Below, piece by piece: positions 5,426-10,939 of a DNA stretch of 20,082 nt. A program made the position numbers and the translations under genes. Origin of the DNA: a virus; IMG/VR virus record IMGVR_UViG_3300042465_002692, positions 1 through 20,082 of that record; one strand, given 5' to 3'. The notes beneath the pieces are model-generated. The model did not search any database and was not told where the DNA came from. It saw nothing but the letters and a program-made list of their open reading frames with translations. The first letter of the stretch is position 1. Each line of letters begins with the position of its first letter.

Positions 5426-5477
5426 ATAGGTTCAGCAGCAGCGCCATCAAGGCGGCTACTAGGGCCGCTATGAGCAT
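5424..5477 (-). CDS. very small hydrophobic ORF (17 aa)
   Basis: ATG 5477 overlaps the end of the 56-residue gene and the ORF stops at 5424, just before the terminator. The peptide MLIAALVAALMALLLNL is almost wholly hydrophobic and could form one short membrane helix. GGAAAAG a few bases upstream is a weak ribosome-binding site. It may be a real last cistron or chance coding. The support is its coupling to the previous gene and the hydrophobic composition, both modest. No function can be assigned. Confidence 0.3.
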   Translation of the reverse strand: MLIAALVAALMALLLNL

Positions 5478-5638
5478 ATCTTTTCCGCATACGCCAGGGC
5501 GTCGGCCTCTAGGGTGAAGATTTTGGCGGACGGCACAGTTTCGCCCGTGTCGTCGTCGCGCAGCGTGACGCGCCAGCGACCGTCGGCCATCCGGCTGACC
5601 TCCGCGCTGATCCCATAGTCGGCGTTCTGGATGATCAC
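5468..5638 (-). CDS. small hypothetical protein (56 aa, GTG start)
   Basis: GTG 5638 overlaps the TGA stop of the preceding gene (GTGA) and has a strong ribosome-binding site GGAGGT 6 nt upstream, inside the preceding gene. The protein starts MIIQNADYGISAEVSRMADG and continues WRVTLRDDDTGETVPSAKIF, then TLEADALAYAEKICS. That is a small acidic domain, probably two beta strands then a helix. I do not recognise the family, and function is unknown. Coupled translation with its upstream neighbour is likely. The GTG start and small size make it easy to miss. Confidence 0.6.
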   Translation of the reverse strand: MIIQNADYGISAEVSRMADGRWRVTLRDDDTGETVPSAKIFTLEADALAYAEKICS

Positions 5639-5955
5639 AGTTCCACCTCCATGTTGTCTTCGCCCTGCGGCACGCTCACGCGGTCGCTGAGGCCCTCGTA
5701 AAACCCCGTCAAGCTACAGTCTGTGCCATATGGCCCGCCGCCGGTCTTAAAGTTGCGCCGGGTACTGTTAAGCGCGTAATACTGCGCGGTATACGCCGCC
5801 GTTGACAGGCTAGCGCCTTCGGTCGGGTACATACGCCGCTCCGGGCCTTTGCTCTTGACCGGCTTATGCTTACCTGTAATTTTCAACAGTTCGCCCAGGA
5901 TGTCGCGGTCATCGCGCACGGTATAGCGGGCGCGGCCTAGTGTGATTGTTTTCAT
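5635..5955 (-). CDS. hypothetical phage protein (106 aa)
   Basis: ATG 5955 has GGAGT 5 nt upstream, a good ribosome-binding site. The basic N-terminal part begins MKTITLGRARYTVRDDRDILGEL and includes KHKPVKSKGPERR (about 29-41). The middle is rich in Ser, Thr and Tyr (STAAYTAQYYALNSTRRNF), and the tail is acidic (EDNMEVEL). I see no known catalytic motif and do not recognise the family. It lies in the leftward small-gene operon, 15 nt after the HTPGPW-type gene, and its stop overlaps the next GTG start. Codon use fits the surrounding phage genes. Confidence 0.7.
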   Translation of the reverse strand: MKTITLGRARYTVRDDRDILGELLKITGKHKPVKSKGPERRMYPTEGASLSTAAYTAQYYALNSTRRNFKTGGGPYGTDCSLTGFYEGLSDRVSVPQGEDNMEVEL

Positions 5956-5970
5956 GTGTTACTCCATTGG

Positions 5971-6252
5971 TTAGTTGACTAAAGGGTCTTTCCACATCGG
6001 GTCTACAGCCTTGATTGCGGCTATTGCATAGTCTTCCCACGATCTATCGTCGTCGGGGGCTTCTAGGGCCATTTTGAGCGCTTCCAGCAAGGTAGGCGCT
6101 GCGGCGATTAATTGAGCGTCAGCAAAATTTACTGACTGCACGTCCCCAACAACGCCTTTTTTATTTTGCTGCACAATGTGCCAGTAGGCTGGTTCCCCAT
6201 TAATTGTGTCAATTACCTCAGTCACCCACGGACCCGGTGTATGCTTACTCAT
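5971..6252 (-). CDS. HTPGPW-type small phage protein (93 aa)
   Basis: ATG 6252 has AGGAGT about 6 nt upstream. The protein opens MSKHTPGPW, followed later by NFADAQLIAAAPTLLEALKMAL. This pair of motifs marks a very common family of small phage proteins of unknown function. The second motif is a helix that probably carries the fold (residues about 43-64). The tail is acidic (APDDDRSWEDY) and ends in AIAAIKAVDPMWKDP. No enzymatic residues are known. It is transcribed leftward between the 23-codon ORF and the 106-residue gene. Such genes are typical of early-expressed accessory operons in tailed phages. Confidence 0.85.
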   Translation of the reverse strand: MSKHTPGPWVTEVIDTINGEPAYWHIVQQNKKGVVGDVQSVNFADAQLIAAAPTLLEALKMALEAPDDDRSWEDYAIAAIKAVDPMWKDPLVN

Positions 6253-6262
6253 AATTTCACTC

Positions 6263-6334
6263 CTAAAAAGACAGGGGTGAGCCTTGATGGATCAGAACCC
6301 ATCCATTTTGGCTGTAGCTTAAGTGTGTTTTCAT
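6263..6334 (-). CDS. tiny ORF (23 aa) coupled by ATGA overlap
   Basis: ATG 6334 overlaps the TGA of the 31-residue ORF (ATGA), with GGAG about 9 nt upstream. The peptide begins MKTHLSYSQNGWVLIHQG and ends 11 nt before the next start. Its stop codon lies just before the ribosome-binding site of the HTPGPW-type gene. It could be a genuine small peptide or a leader that couples translation to the next gene. Function unknown. Confidence 0.35.
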   Translation of the reverse strand: MKTHLSYSQNGWVLIHQGSPLSF

Positions 6335-6426
6335 GGTTTCATGCTCCAAAAGTACCAAATAAAGGGAAGACCCCAAATGGCAGCGCCGATAAGTCCCTGA
6401 AATAGGGTCCAGAGTAGTTTCCTCAT
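6331..6426 (-). CDS. small single-span membrane peptide (31 aa)
   Basis: ATG 6426 overlaps the TGA stop of the upstream gene (ATGA), a classic coupling signal. The peptide starts MRKLLWTLFQGLIGAAIWGL and continues PFIWYFWSMKP. It has a positive N-terminus followed by about 22 hydrophobic, tryptophan-rich residues, as in a single inner-membrane helix with the N-terminus in the cytoplasm. It then overlaps the next tiny ORF by ATGA. It could be a small membrane modulator (superinfection exclusion, lysis timing or other), but no family is recognised, so this is inference. Confidence 0.5.
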   Translation of the reverse strand: MRKLLWTLFQGLIGAAIWGLPFIWYFWSMKP

Positions 6427-6671
6427 ATCGTGCAACACCCGCAACATGGAGCATCCTCGCAGCGGCCACGGGGGTTACGGTAGAACGTGTTTGCCCCGTT
6501 CTCACCGTAGAACGTGACGGCACCACTGGCAAAGGGGCGCGCCATATCGCCCGGCTCTGCAACCCACGCTTTACGGGTCACAGTGTCATATTGAATCTCG
6601 TCACCCGGGTTGATACGGGCGCCCGTGATAGCATCGCGGCCCGGGTACCGGGCGGTCATAGTCTTAATCAT
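6423..6671 (-). CDS. small cysteine-rich phage protein (82 aa, RGRCEDAPCCGC type)
   Basis: ATG 6671 overlaps the end of the upstream gene by 8 nt. The N-terminal part has ARYPGRDAITGARINPGDEIQYD, which resembles a small domain often found with cysteine pairs in phage proteins (here the usual cysteines are replaced). The C-terminus is RGRCEDAPCCGCCTI, with five cysteines that could bind metal. I know this ending as typical of small conserved phage proteins without assigned function. A second in-frame Met at residue 5 has no better ribosome-binding site. It is part of the leftward operon and its stop forms an ATGA overlap with the membrane-peptide ORF. Confidence 0.75.
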   Translation of the reverse strand: MIKTMTARYPGRDAITGARINPGDEIQYDTVTRKAWVAEPGDMARPFASGAVTFYGENGANTFYRNPRGRCEDAPCCGCCTI

Positions 6672-6894
6672 AAACTACCCCGTTAGCTAAAATTTTGGTC
6701 AAGTTAGATGCTGGCACGTGGCGCACGGTTGAACCGTCAATGTGACGATTCCACGTGCCCATAAAGTCAACGGAAACCACTGGACCGTTGACGTTAACCA
6801 CGCGCCCGCGCGCGTCGGCCACGCGTTTATCACACCCGAGTCGGCGGACGACGTCGCGATGAAAAGTAACTTTATCGCCGATAGAAAATTTCAT
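6664..6894 (-). CDS. KOW/SH3-like small phage protein (76 aa)
   Basis: ATG 6894 overlaps the previous TGA (ATGA), favouring it over an in-frame ATG 15 nt upstream. The protein begins MKFSIGDKVTFHRDVVRRLG and has GRVVNVNGPVVSVDFMGTWNRH in the middle, then VPASNLTKI. The pattern of short beta strands around a G-x-V-x-x-V-x-G-x-x-V-x-V-D-F core looks like an SH3-type barrel of the kind found in KOW domains. Related small proteins are frequent in phage accessory operons. The role is unknown, with nucleic-acid or protein binding possible. It overlaps the next gene by 8 nt. Confidence 0.75.
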   Translation of the reverse strand: MKFSIGDKVTFHRDVVRRLGCDKRVADARGRVVNVNGPVVSVDFMGTWNRHIDGSTVRHVPASNLTKILANGVVYD

Positions 6895-7085
6895 AATTTG
6901 TTGATCCAAGCGTGAGTATCGGCGTCGTCGTATGCGCCCAGCATGGCGTCGGTCAATTGGTCGCGGGTTACCGATGGGTCTTCCGCGACCGCCTCACGCC
7001 AGCCGTTGTTTGGGTCTAGTGAGTCGGCGAAATCAAGTAGCTGGGGGATGCTGTAATGGCGCAGCATATCGGATAAGGTGGTCAT
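6891..7085 (-). CDS. small acidic helical hypothetical protein (64 aa)
   Basis: ATG 7085 is preceded by GGAG with 5 nt spacing, so it is preferred over the in-frame ATG at 7106, which lacks a site. The protein begins MTTLSDMLRHYSIPQLLDFA, followed by DSLDPNNGWREAVAEDPSVT and a helical acidic end. It may be an all-helical small domain, and I recognise no family. It lies 60 nt after the DUF7227-like gene, with a strong hairpin in between, and its stop overlaps the KOW-like gene start. Confidence 0.65.
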   Translation of the reverse strand: MTTLSDMLRHYSIPQLLDFADSLDPNNGWREAVAEDPSVTRDQLTDAMLGAYDDADTHAWINKL

Positions 7086-7114
7086 ATTGTCTCCAATAGG
7101 TGGCATGAGTGCCC

Positions 7115-7139
7115 GTCAGGCGCCGCCCGGGCGCCTGAC
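7115..7139 (-). other. strong intergenic hairpin in the leftward operon
   Basis: GTCAGGCGCC and GGCGCCTGAC pair over 10 bp with a 5-base loop. No T-run follows on either strand, so it is not a standard terminator. It lies just after the stop of the DUF7227-like gene and before the ribosome-binding site of the next gene. It may protect or process the mRNA between the upper and lower parts of the operon. Confidence 0.55.
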
Positions 7140-7145
7140 AGTCCG

Positions 7146-7805
7146 TCACGCTGCCAGACGCATATTAATGACGCGCTGGCGTGAACCATGGGCCGGGAAT
7201 CCTACGATGGCGCCGCGCTGGCGTTGGCACAGTTGGCAGGTCGCGCACGATACATTGTCGCGTTGCGTGGCCGGGCAGATAACTACCGGGCGGCCCTTAG
7301 GCGTGGTGGTGTTAGTTGTTTGAGTTGACGGCAACACCACCACCACCGGCCCGGCGGCATGATCGGCCAGTGTGTCGGCGTCGGTCAGATCATTGGCCGA
7401 TAAGTTGACAGTAAAGCCCCATGCATTGGCGTGTCGAATCCAATTGATCGATTCGGCGTCGCGGTGGTGAGAGTAAGTAAAGCCCCGGCGGCCAGCGTTG
7501 GCGGCGACTAACTGGCCGAGCGCGGCGGCGTCAATGGTGCCACCTGATTGCGGCAGGTCGCCTGCCTGATTGTGGCGCCACAGTTGGCCGTCTGGCAGCG
7601 CGGCGATGGCGGCGGTGAATGTCGGCCAATCCGTGCCACGCTGGCCGGTGCTGACTGCTTTCCAATGCAACGCGAGCGGCCCGGTCGCCGCGTAACATTC
7701 TGCTTTCATAGCGCAATCTGTCGGGCATGAGTCGCTGGCCGTGGTGCTGACTGGTATCGGGCCGGTCTTCGCGTTGGCGGATTTGATTGTCAGGTGAACT
7801 TGCAT
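7146..7805 (-). CDS. DUF7227/Gp88-like phage protein (219 aa)
   Basis: From ATG 7805 the protein begins MQVHLTIKSANAKTGPIPVS, followed by a cysteine cluster C27-x3-C31-x5-C37 (CPTDCAMKAECY). Later come GQLWRHNQAGDLP, GRRGFTYSHH, GFTVNLSANDL, AGPVVVVLPS and RPVVICPA, then CATCQLCQRQR and IVGFPAHG. I recognise this series as a widespread phage family (DUF7227, similar to Gp88-type proteins) with unknown role. The repeated beta-strand blocks and two cysteine clusters suggest a metal- or Fe-S-binding barrel; that is inference. An in-frame upstream ATG (7838) inside the 52-bp repeat would add 11 residues. Neither start has a clear ribosome-binding site. It is the largest protein of the leftward operon. 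Confidence 0.8.
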   Translation of the reverse strand: MQVHLTIKSANAKTGPIPVSTTASDSCPTDCAMKAECYAATGPLALHWKAVSTGQRGTDWPTFTAAIAALPDGQLWRHNQAGDLPQSGGTIDAAALGQLVAANAGRRGFTYSHHRDAESINWIRHANAWGFTVNLSANDLTDADTLADHAAGPVVVVLPSTQTTNTTTPKGRPVVICPATQRDNVSCATCQLCQRQRGAIVGFPAHGSRQRVINMRLAA

Positions 7806-7823
7806 GGTAATGTACTTTATGAA

Positions 7824-7875
7824 TGATGCGGATTGCATCGCATAGCGGCCAGTGGCCGCTATACGCTGGAATCAG
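7824..7875 (-). repeat. 52-bp direct repeat with long hairpin, copy 1
   Basis: Identical over 52 of 52 bases to 8091-8142. Inside it, 20-base arms (7831-7850 and 7854-7873) around the loop AGT pair at 17 positions. As minus-strand RNA one more position is a G-U pair, so the leftward transcript folds best. Its left part holds the in-frame ATG reading MQSAS ahead of the DUF7227-like gene. Its right end contains the TGA stop of the 63-residue gene. Confidence 0.9.
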
Positions 7876-8063
7876 GCGCGGGCATGCTCTTCGATCTCTA
7901 CCTGGAAACCATCTTCAATGGCAGATATCGCTATTGATTTGGCTTCGTCCCATGGAATAGCAGCGAAAGCTCTATAGATGGTTCCATTAAGACGCATAAC
8001 GCAATCGACTAAAAATCCGGGTTCGTCGGATGCGTTGATCTCTGCAAGGGTAAAAATGGCCAT
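7872..8063 (-). CDS. small acidic hypothetical protein (63 aa) between two repeats
   Basis: ATG 8063 gives MAIFTLAEINASDEPGFLVD, followed by CVMRLNGTIYRAFAAIPWDE and AKSIAISAIEDGFQVEIEEH. This is probably a small alpha/beta domain with an acidic C-terminal helix. There is no good ribosome-binding site. An in-frame ATG at 8105, inside the second 52-bp repeat, would add the residues MQSAS and more. The stop codon TGA is the first codon of repeat copy 1, so the gene is framed exactly by the two repeats and looks like a removable cassette. Family and function are not recognised. Confidence 0.65.
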   Translation of the reverse strand: MAIFTLAEINASDEPGFLVDCVMRLNGTIYRAFAAIPWDEAKSIAISAIEDGFQVEIEEHARA

Positions 8064-8090
8064 TTTGTTTATCCAGGTTGTTTGGTTGTT

Positions 8091-8142
8091 TGATGCGGAT
8101 TGCATCGCATAGCGGCCAGTGGCCGCTATACGCTGGAATCAG
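8091..8142 (-). repeat. 52-bp direct repeat with long hairpin, copy 2
   Basis: Second identical copy of the element at 7824-7875, with arms 8098-8117 and 8121-8140 and loop AGT. As in copy 1, its right end supplies the TGA stop of the gene upstream (the 69-residue gene) and its left end an in-frame ATG (MQSAS) ahead of the next gene. Confidence 0.9.
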
Positions 8143-8348
8143 TGTGCGACTAAGCAATGGTTTTCAGTGTAGAAGTGATGTGACAGACCATGCTGTTTGA
8201 TCACTGACAGGATCACTTTAGTGTCGCTAGCAGTACCGCAGCGCTGGATTGTCGCCAGTGTGCGGCAAGCAATGCCTGTCATTGTGTCGTCGCCCATGTT
8301 GATCAACATGAGTGCTTTGTCTAGTTCGCGCTGGTTTGCTTTGTTCAT
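8139..8348 (-). CDS. small hypothetical protein (69 aa), first gene of the leftward operon
   Basis: ATG 8348 gives MNKANQRELDKALMLINMGD, followed by DTMTGIACRTLATIQRCGTA and SDTKVILSVIKQHGLSHHFY. It is mainly helical, with a basic start and a histidine-rich end. The frame stays open far upstream (to 8744), but that stretch is made of low-complexity repeats (Met-Thr-His/Cys-rich) that I read as non-coding. I have seen similar small helical proteins among phage hypotheticals but cannot name the family. It is the first good gene leftward of the LexA-box region, so it may be the first under that control. Its TGA lies in repeat copy 2. Confidence 0.65.
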   Translation of the reverse strand: MNKANQRELDKALMLINMGDDTMTGIACRTLATIQRCGTASDTKVILSVIKQHGLSHHFYTENHCLVAH

Positions 8349-8409: not shown

Positions 8410-8541
8410 GTGTCTGTCACATACGCGACACCCTGGAATTGTGGGTCATGTGTGTCGGATTGTGGGTGACGTGTGGGTGACGACGTGAGCCTAGTACTGC
8501 CCAATGAAAATGCCCGTTTGTGTGTCATGTGTGCCATGTAT

Positions 8542-8570
8542 TTGATTAGACTTATGAAAGAATATATACT
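8542..8570 (+). promoter_or_regulatory. sigma70-like promoter overlapped by LexA box
   Basis: TTGATT (8542-8547), a 17-bp spacer and TATACT (8565-8570) match the sigma70 pattern well. The expected start near 8577 falls inside the LexA box, so bound LexA should block it. The next plus-strand signal is a hairpin plus TTTT, about 55 nt later. Confidence 0.55.
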
Positions 8571-8586
8571 GTATATATATACAGTA
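8567..8586. promoter_or_regulatory. LexA (SOS) box, perfect consensus
   Basis: TACTGTATATATATACAGTA is a perfect 20-bp palindrome and is identical to the E. coli-type LexA consensus (CTGT-N8-ACAG with alternating TA core and flanking TA). It lies at the divergent control region, overlapping candidate promoters of both strands, which is where a functional SOS operator would be expected. Confidence 0.85.
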
Positions 8587-8602
8587 GTTTGTAGTACAGG
8601 AA
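8574..8602 (-). promoter_or_regulatory. candidate leftward promoter overlapping the LexA box
   Basis: Read on the minus strand, TTCCTG (8602-8597), a 17-bp spacer and TATATA (8579-8574) form a moderate sigma70-like promoter. Its -10 element lies in the LexA box. It would drive the leftward small-gene operon with a leader of a little over 200 nt. The alternating TA core makes -10-like matches easy, so certainty is limited. Confidence 0.35.
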
Positions 8603-8607
8603 CTAGG

Positions 8608-8631
8608 CTCCGCGCAGATGTGCGGAGTTTT
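8608..8631 (+). terminator. short hairpin with T-run, possible terminator of a small RNA
   Basis: CTCCGCGCA and TGTGCGGAG pair (one G-T) and are followed by TTTT on the plus strand. It lies about 30 nt past the predicted start of the LexA-overlapped promoter, so the two could define an RNA of about 55 nt. The T-run is short, so termination may be weak. Confidence 0.45.
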
Positions 8632-8645
8632 GGCGACTGAAAACA

Positions 8646-8714
8646 TATGGCACACATGACCCACATGACCCACAAATCAACCCACACGCGATTCTGTGGG
8701 TCATGTGTGCCATA
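8646..8714. repeat. 20-bp perfect inverted repeat plus a nested 10-bp hairpin
   Basis: The 20 bases at 8646-8665 are the exact reverse complement of 8695-8714, separated by 29 bases. The right arm also takes part in a second perfect hairpin, CATGTGTGCC (8702-8711) with GGCACACATG (8716-8725) over the loop ATAC, so two structures compete. Both are built from the CACATG words. Confidence 0.75.
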
Positions 8715-8797
8715 CGGCACACATGGCACACATGGCACACACACTCATGTGTGTCATGTGTGTCATCCGGCCACACTGCCCACATGACACACACTTT

Positions 8798-8832
8798 GCG
8801 CCCTGGTAGCACGTGCTGCGCGCCCTGGTAGC
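8798..8832. repeat. two direct repeats GCGCCCTGGTAGC, 22 bp apart
   Basis: GCGCCCTGGTAGC occurs at 8798-8810 and 8820-8832. The 22-bp period is close to two helical turns, as in sites bound side by side by one protein. Another 13-base word, CACACTGCCCACA, is repeated at 8772-8784 and 8852-8864. Confidence 0.6.
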
Positions 8833-8995
8833 TGCGCGCCGTGTGCTGGCACACACTGCCCACACGCTGGCGGCGGCGGCGGTCGGGCGGCTGGCGGCTG
8901 GCGGTCGCCCTGGCGGTCGAGGCCGGGGAGGGAGGGCCGACGGGTTGAGGCCACGGCTACGGAGCGCCCGCAGACAATTTTTTGCAAACAATTTT

Positions 8996-9024
8996 TTGGC
9001 TAGAATTTTTATTTTTTGTGATAT
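8996..9024 (+). promoter_or_regulatory. candidate promoter of the late (terminase) module
   Basis: TTGGCT (8996-9001), a 17-bp AT-rich spacer and TGATAT (9019-9024) fit a sigma70 promoter. The expected start is close to 9031, only a few bases before the small terminase ATG at 9034, which has no ribosome-binding site. The T-rich repeat ACAATTTTTTG (8974-8984 and 8988-8998) lies just upstream. Confidence 0.4.
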
Positions 9025-9033
9025 AAACCCGAC

Positions 9034-9441
9034 ATGGTCTCATTCCCGCTATCAATTCGAGAGCTAAAAGCAACAGAGTCGCGCTTACAGGCCGTGTACG
9101 ACGCAGCAAAGCTAGGGCTGCGCGGTGAGACACTCGCGCTTGCAGCCGGTATGCTGCCGCAAGAGTTCATGACGCTGAGTAACTTTGATCCGGTCGTGAA
9201 CATGGCCGCAATGAAAGGCAAAGCCGACGGCGAACGCGAGATGGCAGAGATATTGCACAGCGCAGCGCGAGGCGGCGACGCCAAGGCGGCGCTAGAGATA
9301 CTGAAGCATCAACACGGCTGGGTCGCCAAGCAGGCCATCTCAGTAGAGATCGACCAACGCATATCCATAACCCAGGCGCTGGCAGAGGCAGAGCGGCGCG
9401 TCATAGAAATCATAGATGCAGACCACAATTTACCAACCTGA
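9034..9441 (+). CDS. terminase small subunit
   Basis: A 135-residue protein immediately before and overlapping the large terminase by 26 nt. It is all-helical. Residues about 10-55 (ELKATESRLQAVYDAAKLGL, then TLALAAGMLPQEFMTL) look like a helix-turn-helix DNA-recognition domain. Residues 60-100 (GEREMAEILHSAARGGDAKA, then LEILKHQHGW) match the helical region typical of phage small terminases. The C-terminal part (AEAERRVIEIIDA) is a likely oligomerisation helix. It should recognise the phage pac site and regulate the large subunit in headful packaging. ATG 9034 has no ribosome-binding site and lies very near the predicted transcription start, so it may be translated from an almost leaderless mRNA. 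Confidence 0.82.
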   Translation: MVSFPLSIRELKATESRLQAVYDAAKLGLRGETLALAAGMLPQEFMTLSNFDPVVNMAAMKGKADGEREMAEILHSAARGGDAKAALEILKHQHGWVAKQAISVEIDQRISITQALAEAERRVIEIIDADHNLPT

Positions 9442-10939
9442 AGACGAACAAGAACTCATGGCCCGGCTGTGGAGTCCGGCGCTCAAAGACAACCCACTAG
9501 CGTTTGTGCTGTACCTGTTCCCCTGGGGGCGCAAGGGTACGCCGCTGGAACATTTCACTGGCCCGCGCAAATGGCAGCGCGAGGTGCTGCAAGATATTGC
9601 CGACCATATTAAGAAGAACAAGGGCGTTGTCGACTACTCGGTATTGCAGGAGGCAGTATCTAGCGGACGGGGTATCGGCAAGTCCGCGCTAGTTAGTTGG
9701 CTAACTATATGGATGACATCGACGCGAATTGGCTCGACAACCATTATCTCGGCCAACTCGGAAAACCAGTTACGCAGTATTACCTGGGCGGAGATAACTA
9801 AATGGCTGGCTATGGGACTAAACAGCCACTGGTTTGAGGTAAGTGCCACCCGAGTAGCCCCCGCAAAGTGGTTAACTGAGTTAGTCGAACGCGATTTGAA
9901 GAAGGGTACTAGGTATTGGGGCGTAGAAGGTCGGCTTTGGAGTGCTGAGAACCCGGATGCTTATGCTGGTGTGCACAATTTTGACGGTGTGCTGGTGATT
10001 TTTGACGAAGCGAGTGGTATTGATGACTCGATTTGGTCGGTCACTGGTGGATTCTTCACGGAAAACACGCCGAATCGTTTTTGGCTGGCATTCTCCAATC
10101 CGCGTAGAAACACGGGGTACTTTTACGAGACTTTTCACTCAAAGCGGGACTTTTGGGCGACTAAGGTGGTGGATGCGCGGACGGTGGAGGGGACGGACAA
10201 GGCGGTTTATGAACGGATTATTGCGGAGTACGGGCCGGACAGTGCCCAGGCGCACGTTGAGGTGTATGGTGAGTTCCCACGGGCGGGGGATGACCAGTTT
10301 ATACCGTCGGATGTGGTGGATGAGGCGATGAAGCGGCCTAAGTACAAGGATGGGACGGCACCGATCATTATTGGTGTGGATCCTGCGCGGTTTGGGGCGG
10401 ATGCGACTGTGATTGCGGTCAGACAGGGGCGGGATATTGTGGCAATCAAGAAGTACCGGGGGGATGACACCATGACGGTGGTGGGGCATATCATTGAGGC
10501 GATTGAGGAGTACAAACCGACGTTAGTCGTAATTGATGAGGGTGGGTTGGGGGCGGGGATTGTGGATAGGCTCAAGGAGCAGCGGTACAAGATCAAGGGG
10601 GTGAACTTTGGGAACAAGTCAAAAAACCCGATAATGTATGGAAATATGAGGGCGCAGATGTGGGGGGATATGAAAGCGTGGTTGAAATCTGCTAGTATTC
10701 CGCACGATAGGTTTTTGAAGACAGACCTAATTTCGCCCTTGATGAAGCCTGATTCACGGGGTACGATCTTCTTGGAGAGCAAGAAAGAGATGAAAGCACG
10801 GGGTTTAGCCAGTCCAGATGCTGCGGATGCTATCTGTGTGACGTTTGCTTTTCCTGTGGCGCATCGTGAGTACAAAATTCCGTCTGTTCGGCAGTACTCA
10901 AATCATTCGGCGGTATCAACTGGATGGATGGGGTCATGA
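9416..10939 (+). CDS. terminase large subunit (ATPase and nuclease)
   Basis: A 507-residue packaging motor. The ATPase domain has Walker A SGRGIGKS (83-90) and Walker B VLVIFDEAS (192-200, D197, E198), then SNPRRNTG as a coupling-motif region. The RNase H-like nuclease domain has VDPARFGADATV with D322, VVIDEGGLGAG with D374, and SPDAADA with D468/D471, giving three acidic clusters for metal binding. The order and length fit the P22/Sf6 type of headful-packaging terminase. It would cut concatemers and pump DNA through the portal encoded at 11941. The segment from about 10140 to 10660 uses unusually many G-ending codons compared with the flanks. Its stop overlaps the next gene by ATGA. Confidence 0.93.
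   Translation: MQTTIYQPEDEQELMARLWSPALKDNPLAFVLYLFPWGRKGTPLEHFTGPRKWQREVLQDIADHIKKNKGVVDYSVLQEAVSSGRGIGKSALVSWLTIWMTSTRIGSTTIISANSENQLRSITWAEITKWLAMGLNSHWFEVSATRVAPAKWLTELVERDLKKGTRYWGVEGRLWSAENPDAYAGVHNFDGVLVIFDEASGIDDSIWSVTGGFFTENTPNRFWLAFSNPRRNTGYFYETFHSKRDFWATKVVDARTVEGTDKAVYERIIAEYGPDSAQAHVEVYGEFPRAGDDQFIPSDVVDEAMKRPKYKDGTAPIIIGVDPARFGADATVIAVRQGRDIVAIKKYRGDDTMTVVGHIIEAIEEYKPTLVVIDEGGLGAGIVDRLKEQRYKIKGVNFGNKSKNPIMYGNMRAQMWGDMKAWLKSASIPHDRFLKTDLISPLMKPDSRGTIFLESKKEMKARGLASPDAADAICVTFAFPVAHREYKIPSVRQYSNHSAVSTGWMGS

Follow-up and report, generated by a model that had tools for sequence, protein, structure and literature searches.

A probable LexA operator at a predicted promoter ahead of the terminase genes in lytic-looking freshwater podoviruses

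The DNA analysed here (the window), 20,082 bases long, is part of the genome of an uncultivated freshwater virus from IMG/VR. At 8567–8586 it carries a perfect LexA-type palindrome, the first four bases of which lie inside the −10 element of a predicted rightward promoter. Exact copies of this box occur at the same place in many related viruses, and the relatives show none of the known lysogeny genes that we searched for. Our preferred reading is that host LexA probably silences this rightward promoter, in a control region for replication and packaging, until the SOS response sets in.

The early part of the window holds rightward genes for a partial exonuclease, an SSB-like protein, a family A DNA polymerase and a VirE-type primase/helicase. 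The last of these is followed by a leftward block of small genes (5468–8348), after which rightward genes resume with a putative terS, terL, a P22-like portal and further structural genes. The box lies within the non-coding region of approximately 690 bp that separates the leftward block from terS. The features that matter for the argument are as follows.

8567–8586, no strand: LexA operator (SOS box), perfect 20-bp palindrome TACTGTATATATATACAGTA, exact consensus
8542–8570, plus strand: predicted sigma-70 promoter TTGATT-17-TATACT, its −10 overlapping the box, predicted start near 8577
8520–8537, plus strand: tandem 9-bp repeat pair GTGTGTCAT/GTGTGCCAT, 29 bp 5′ of the box
8648–8674, minus strand: inverted copies of the 9-bp repeat on the far side of the box, with more copies to about 8795
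8608–8631, plus strand: terminator-like hairpin and TTTT, the claimed end of a small RNA; folds well, not conserved as a terminator
8139–8348, minus strand: first gene of the leftward operon, an ORF of 69 aa, 218 bp from the box
5468–8105, minus strand: remainder of the leftward operon, small uncharacterised proteins and one DUF7227 protein (7146–7838)
9034–9441, plus strand: putative terminase small subunit (terS), directly 5′ of TerL, conserved
9416–10939, plus strand: terminase large subunit (TerL; PHROG 2, E 2e-44), the query used for relatives

The palindrome TACTGTATATATATACAGTA agrees with the E. coli-type LexA consensus at 20 of 20 positions, with a CTGT-N8-ACAG core and TA flanks, which confirms the perfect box claimed by an earlier note on this DNA. 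It is the only such match in the window, even when up to three mismatches are allowed (expected number 0, from 100 shuffles). Its matrix score is higher than those of all 13 E. coli boxes behind the matrix. When 2.9 million IMG/VR viral contigs were scanned, the exact 20-mer was found in 79 stretches, two of which share one contig, as against a single copy of a control palindrome with the same composition and the outer words swapped (TACAGTATATATATACTGTA). Approximately 54 of the 79 belong to one podovirus family and have the box in an equivalent position ahead of the terminase genes; this figure leaves out two stretches with 26–32% identity (the script counted 56). The family was assigned by tblastn with proteins of the window and of a distant relative. 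Where a terminase anchor was available, the exact copies lie around 735–1430 bp 5′ of TerL. No named phage matched the region in a search at the DNA level.

Relatives were also fetched by TerL or TerS alone, which avoids ascertainment through the box, and this yielded 197 distinct loci. A LexA-type site (matrix score ≥18) was present in the same region in 45 of them, compared with 1 in the reversed-sequence control; two further TerL queries came from box-bearing genomes, and the box thus influenced the choice of their clades but not of the members. Box positions 3–6 and 15–18 (CTGT/ACAG) are kept in 42–45 of the 45 sites and the inner positions in only 35–37, a position-wise difference that is partly built in because the PWM screen selects LexA-like letters; the counts against controls are not affected by this selection. 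The variant sites TACTGTATATCCGTACAGTA and TACTGTATGTGTGTACAGTA have lost the AT run and retained CTGT/ACAG. As read from the sequences, a constant CTGT…ACAG with a drifting middle is the pattern of LexA recognition. We are highly confident, from these comparisons of sequence, that 8567–8586 is a real LexA operator under selection. The earlier note had proposed a search for the box in related phages, with loss of the palindrome in close relatives with conserved flanks counting against it. The outcome is mixed but largely in favour of the box: overall conservation is deep, with exceptions among very close relatives, two of which (L003 and L184) have no box, and in a third (L191) the core is 2 bp shorter. 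Another relative (L157) has the perfect box with extra half-sites before (CTACAGTAG) and after it (GTACTGTATATAG), which are possibly overlapping LexA sites.

On a TerL tree of 132 phages, which includes loci found through the box, the presence of the box changes state at least 16 times, and box-bearers fall in several clades. Many relatives, some at 96–99% TerL identity, do not have it; the box is therefore not essential to the family. Even phages whose TerL proteins are 98–99% identical can differ in their control region and its repeats. In place of the box, relatives that lack it often have a different palindrome, such as TGTAAGGAATTCCTTTACA, TAAGGGTATACCCTTA or a TTTCATAATGTGAAA-like motif; the slot thus looks like an exchangeable operator position, and the alternatives may be recognised by other regulators of host or phage. 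Palindromes in or near the slot were also seen at L016, L032, L035, L043, L044, L073, L210, L221 and other loci, and GTTAGTGGCCACTAAC arrays are found among these alternatives. We considered and rejected a leftward gene exclusive to box-lacking phages as a source of a substitute repressor: the enriched clusters are small, contain no recognised DNA-binding domain and appear tied to clade membership. The isolates Rhodoferax phage P26218, VvAW1 and BA3 have no LexA-type box. The nearest annotated phages by TerL, DSL-LC05 (OR003940) and Podoviridae sp. ctNMl277 (MW202483), at 68% and 75%, share the gene order of the window around terS/terL; the stretch that was read in them holds no LexA-type box (the highest scores, 9.3 and 10.9, do not exceed those of controls).

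The predicted plus-strand promoter comprises TTGATT (8542–8547), a 17-bp spacer and TATACT (8565–8570), with 9 of 12 consensus bases. It is kept in the closest relatives, and similar hexamers occur in several others. Tandem 9-mers mark its upstream side: in 35 of 54 box-bearing contexts the pair ends 27–33 bp before the box. The 9-mer sequence varies by lineage (TGGGTCATT, TGTGGACAA, TGTAGTCAA and others), and its position is constant. This places the fixed pair at approximately −40 to −60 relative to the predicted rightward start; activators commonly bind at these positions. The inverted copies past the box are more loosely spaced than the upstream pair.

LexA might instead act on a minus-strand promoter at the box and so control the small early genes of the leftward operon. 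This deserves to be weighed because a LexA dimer bound here could also affect the minus-strand start. The layout is divergent, with the first leftward gene 218 bp away, and fair minus-strand hexamers are found downstream of the box in some clades. Hexamer quality is uneven between box-bearing clades, and in some the minus strand scores equally well. In the clade of the window the minus-strand promoter, which the earlier note called moderate, is weak, at 6.2 versus 12.5 for the plus strand on an approximate sigma-70 score. What the note said of a LexA operator and a plus-strand promoter that overlap in a divergent control region is supported. The plus strand is favoured in 42 of 60 contexts, which are non-independent and were scored with an approximate matrix. 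Moreover, the fixed spacing concerns repeats upstream of the plus-strand promoter. We consider leftward control a fair but less likely alternative, and the rightward promoter the probable target of the operator.

A further proposal of the earlier note was that this rightward promoter makes a small RNA under SOS control. In such a scheme, host LexA would control a regulatory RNA of about 55 nt (8577–8631) that acts on phage development. The predicted promoter is there, and so is the hairpin (CTCCGC…GCGGAG, 8608–8627) followed by TTTT (8628–8631); the putative RNA folds well (−20 kcal/mol, z = −3.6). Lambda oop, too, is a small RNA made from a phage promoter that contains a LexA site (PMC5869508), a precedent that takes away the novelty claimed for a phage RNA controlled by LexA. 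The hairpin, however, falls below the threshold of the terminator scan, its tract of four T is short, and neither Rfam families nor tRNAs were found in the window. The segment after the predicted start, GTTTRYAGTACAGGAACTAGG, is kept in box-bearing relatives at 97–99% TerL identity, and at this same distance the hairpin and T-tract are changed or absent. Two relatives (L187, L181) have TTTC in place of TTTT after the hairpin; four (L152, L160, L176, L179) keep the box and have another stem, which no T-tract follows immediately; and the L005 group keeps the box and has no hairpin at all. A short transcript with a conserved terminator, as in lambda oop, was thus not seen, and the 55-nt RNA is not the conserved product. 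We regard control of such an RNA as improbable.

Whether the motif is one that hosts of these phages use was approached through MAGs. Contigs with relatives were found in MAGs assigned to Rhodoferax, Burkholderiales, Betaproteobacteria and Methylococcaceae, among others, and three of the four relative-containing MAGs examined have a LexA gene. Two CTGK-N8-MCAG boxes precede each lexA in the Rhodoferax, Burkholderiales and betaproteobacterial MAGs, the hosts being assigned from the bins. Because bins may hold stray viral contigs, this result shows the motif in use among plausible hosts but does not point to the host of this virus. The perfect 20-mer was found in none of 61 genomes of the genus of the Rhodoferax MAG.

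A phage-encoded repressor that mimics the specificity of LexA could bind the box in place of host LexA, and the different palindromes in the slot of box-lacking relatives would fit a swapping of operators together with repressors. Against this, no LexA DNA-binding domain above the cut-off, no S24 repressor/peptidase and no HTH_3 protein was found in 22 relatives with long or complete genomes, of which one or more are circular and complete; the leftward gene content that was compared is largely the same with and without the box; and the motif equals the LexA motif of the plausible hosts. A phage repressor at the box has little probability in our view. One sub-threshold match to a LexA domain in one relative was rejected as a candidate, being not conserved.

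It is very improbable that an AT-rich origin element, for unwinding or cruciform formation, resembles a LexA box here by chance: the palindrome does lie in an AT-rich spot between inverted arrays of 9-bp iteron-like repeats, but the composition-matched control palindrome is found about 80 times less often, TACTGTATATCCGTACAGTA and TACTGTATGTGTGTACAGTA keep CTGT/ACAG without the AT run, and GC skew gives no origin signal.

The arrays themselves lie within 8430–8870, in both orientations around the box, with repeat families (D1–D4) and inverted repeats (I2–I8), and the inverted 9-mer arrays resemble origin iterons. In close relatives the 9-mer sequence differs and the array layout is unchanged. 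The 9-mer type showed no co-variation with PolA, the VirE-like primase/helicase, SSB or TerS beyond TerL relatedness. A DnaA-like protein was rejected as the 9-mer binder; a clear PF08299 match was found in MW202483 only, as a stand-alone DnaA C-terminal (domain IV-like) protein at 7083–7379 (E 3e-19) that is absent from the other 22 records searched.

The earlier note viewed the box in terms of induction of a temperate phage. The gene content of the family speaks against this: neither a tyrosine integrase (PF00589) nor a serine recombinase/resolvase (PF00239) was found in any of the 22 long or complete relatives. In these searches, and in those for S24 and HTH_3 proteins, the positive controls matched in 10–14 of 14 known genomes. 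One relative with a 96% identical TerL (G006) is circular, its ends overlapping by 3,451 bp at 99.6%. When most non-structural ORFs of this genome and of G002 were compared with Pfam and PHROG, the recognisable genes were for replication, recombination and lysis only, and no partition gene was among the Pfam matches of the two. Integration or lysogenic maintenance of the 186/N15/Gifsy type was thus not found in the 22 relatives, the window itself being a fragment, nor was a phage repressor paired with a LexA-controlled antirepressor, although small uncharacterised proteins may still be antirepressors. Because the window is a 20-kb fragment, the lytic-looking status of its virus is a matter of kinship, and lysogeny genes could lie in the missing part of the genome. 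DSL-LC05, a member of the family, is predicted by BACPHLIP to be virulent (PMC10611076).

In the mechanism that we propose, the box would be an operator for host LexA on the core of the rightward promoter, between the early leftward genes and the terminase and structural genes. In an undamaged cell, LexA on the box would cover the −10 element and the start site and keep the promoter off. Activated RecA, after damage before infection or an SOS response to phage DNA processing or replication, would lead LexA to cleave itself, and the promoter would open. The paired 9-bp repeats would bind a second, probably phage-encoded, factor, and the promoter would therefore integrate a phage signal with the SOS signal of the host. 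Since inverted repeat arrays follow, the transcript would cross an origin-like or packaging region towards terS. It may open the origin-like region, or drive or time terS and the late genes.

Phage control through host LexA is a known principle (186, N15, GIL01, lambda oop) and is textbook knowledge for a few temperate phages. Among the systems compared, the proposed one would in its working be most like GIL01, a tectivirus of Bacillus thuringiensis in which host LexA directly controls promoter P1 through SOS boxes and which itself encodes no SOS-sensitive, CI-like repressor (PMC4551915). GIL01 differs in that it is temperate, exists as a linear plasmid-prophage in a Gram-positive host, has the accessory protein gp7 and uses boxes of the CGAAC-N4-GTTCG type; here an E. 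coli-type box is found in a family of tailed phages without demonstrated lysogeny. The 186 tum, N15 antC and Gifsy antirepressor operons likewise have a LexA box on a phage promoter (PMC3121763), but there LexA controls an antirepressor that inactivates the prophage repressor, and neither protein was recognised here. The lambda oop/pO region shares a small transcript near the replication region and a promoter with a LexA-binding sequence (PMC5869508); oop, however, is antisense to cII and has a defined terminator, whereas here there is no conserved terminator, cII or overlapping opposite gene.

The open-access papers searched, an incomplete set, gave no description of a phage family that combines a LexA operator with an absence of lysogeny genes. 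What stands out here is the LexA-operator principle in a lytic-looking lineage, and over a broad phylogenetic range. Our comparisons suggest that phages which seem to be killers only have wired a switch to the SOS alarm of the host. If this is true, lytic-looking phages read the DNA-damage state of the host. This would matter for why phage growth changes under sublethal DNA damage and antibiotics, for lifestyle prediction from genomes and for the possibility of dormancy in a plasmid-like form. Exchange of the operator for other palindromes in the slot would be a natural experiment in which phages plug into different regulators. The dormant state is the most speculative part: the genome might persist quietly outside the chromosome, with host LexA alone silencing an origin-proximal promoter, and enter lytic growth at SOS. 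The lack of a detected integrase, the LexA operator and the iteron-like region would fit a state of the GIL01 type. Such a carrier state, governed by LexA in tailed phages that have neither repressor nor integrase themselves, in a widespread freshwater family so far taken to be strictly lytic, is doubtful.

Several observations concern the genes on either side of the control region. The first leftward gene (8139–8348) has no Pfam match, and comparable small genes come first in the leftward block of relatives. The content of the leftward operon is common to box-bearing and box-lacking relatives, and no repressor was seen in the part at 5468–8105. Family searches with the putative TerS (9034–9441) gave no match. 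Between 8391 and 8408, 43 bp 5′ of the first leftward gene, lies an inverted repeat, TGTAACCGATAAAGTTAC, a candidate operator for the leftward promoter; similar elements are found in some relatives. Tandem GCAAACAATTTTTT repeats at 8970–9033, with an extended −10-like TGATATAAA around 10 bp 5′ of the terS start codon, may form a late promoter whose leader would be very short. Finally, a 52-bp element with a hairpin (GCGGCCAGTGGCCGC) is present in two identical copies (7824–7875 and 8091–8142), directly 5′ of the start codons of two leftward genes whose products both begin with MQSAS. Copies in other loci include one form in which both arms are changed together (GGCGCC…GCGCC), which suggests a conserved RNA structure at the start of translation.
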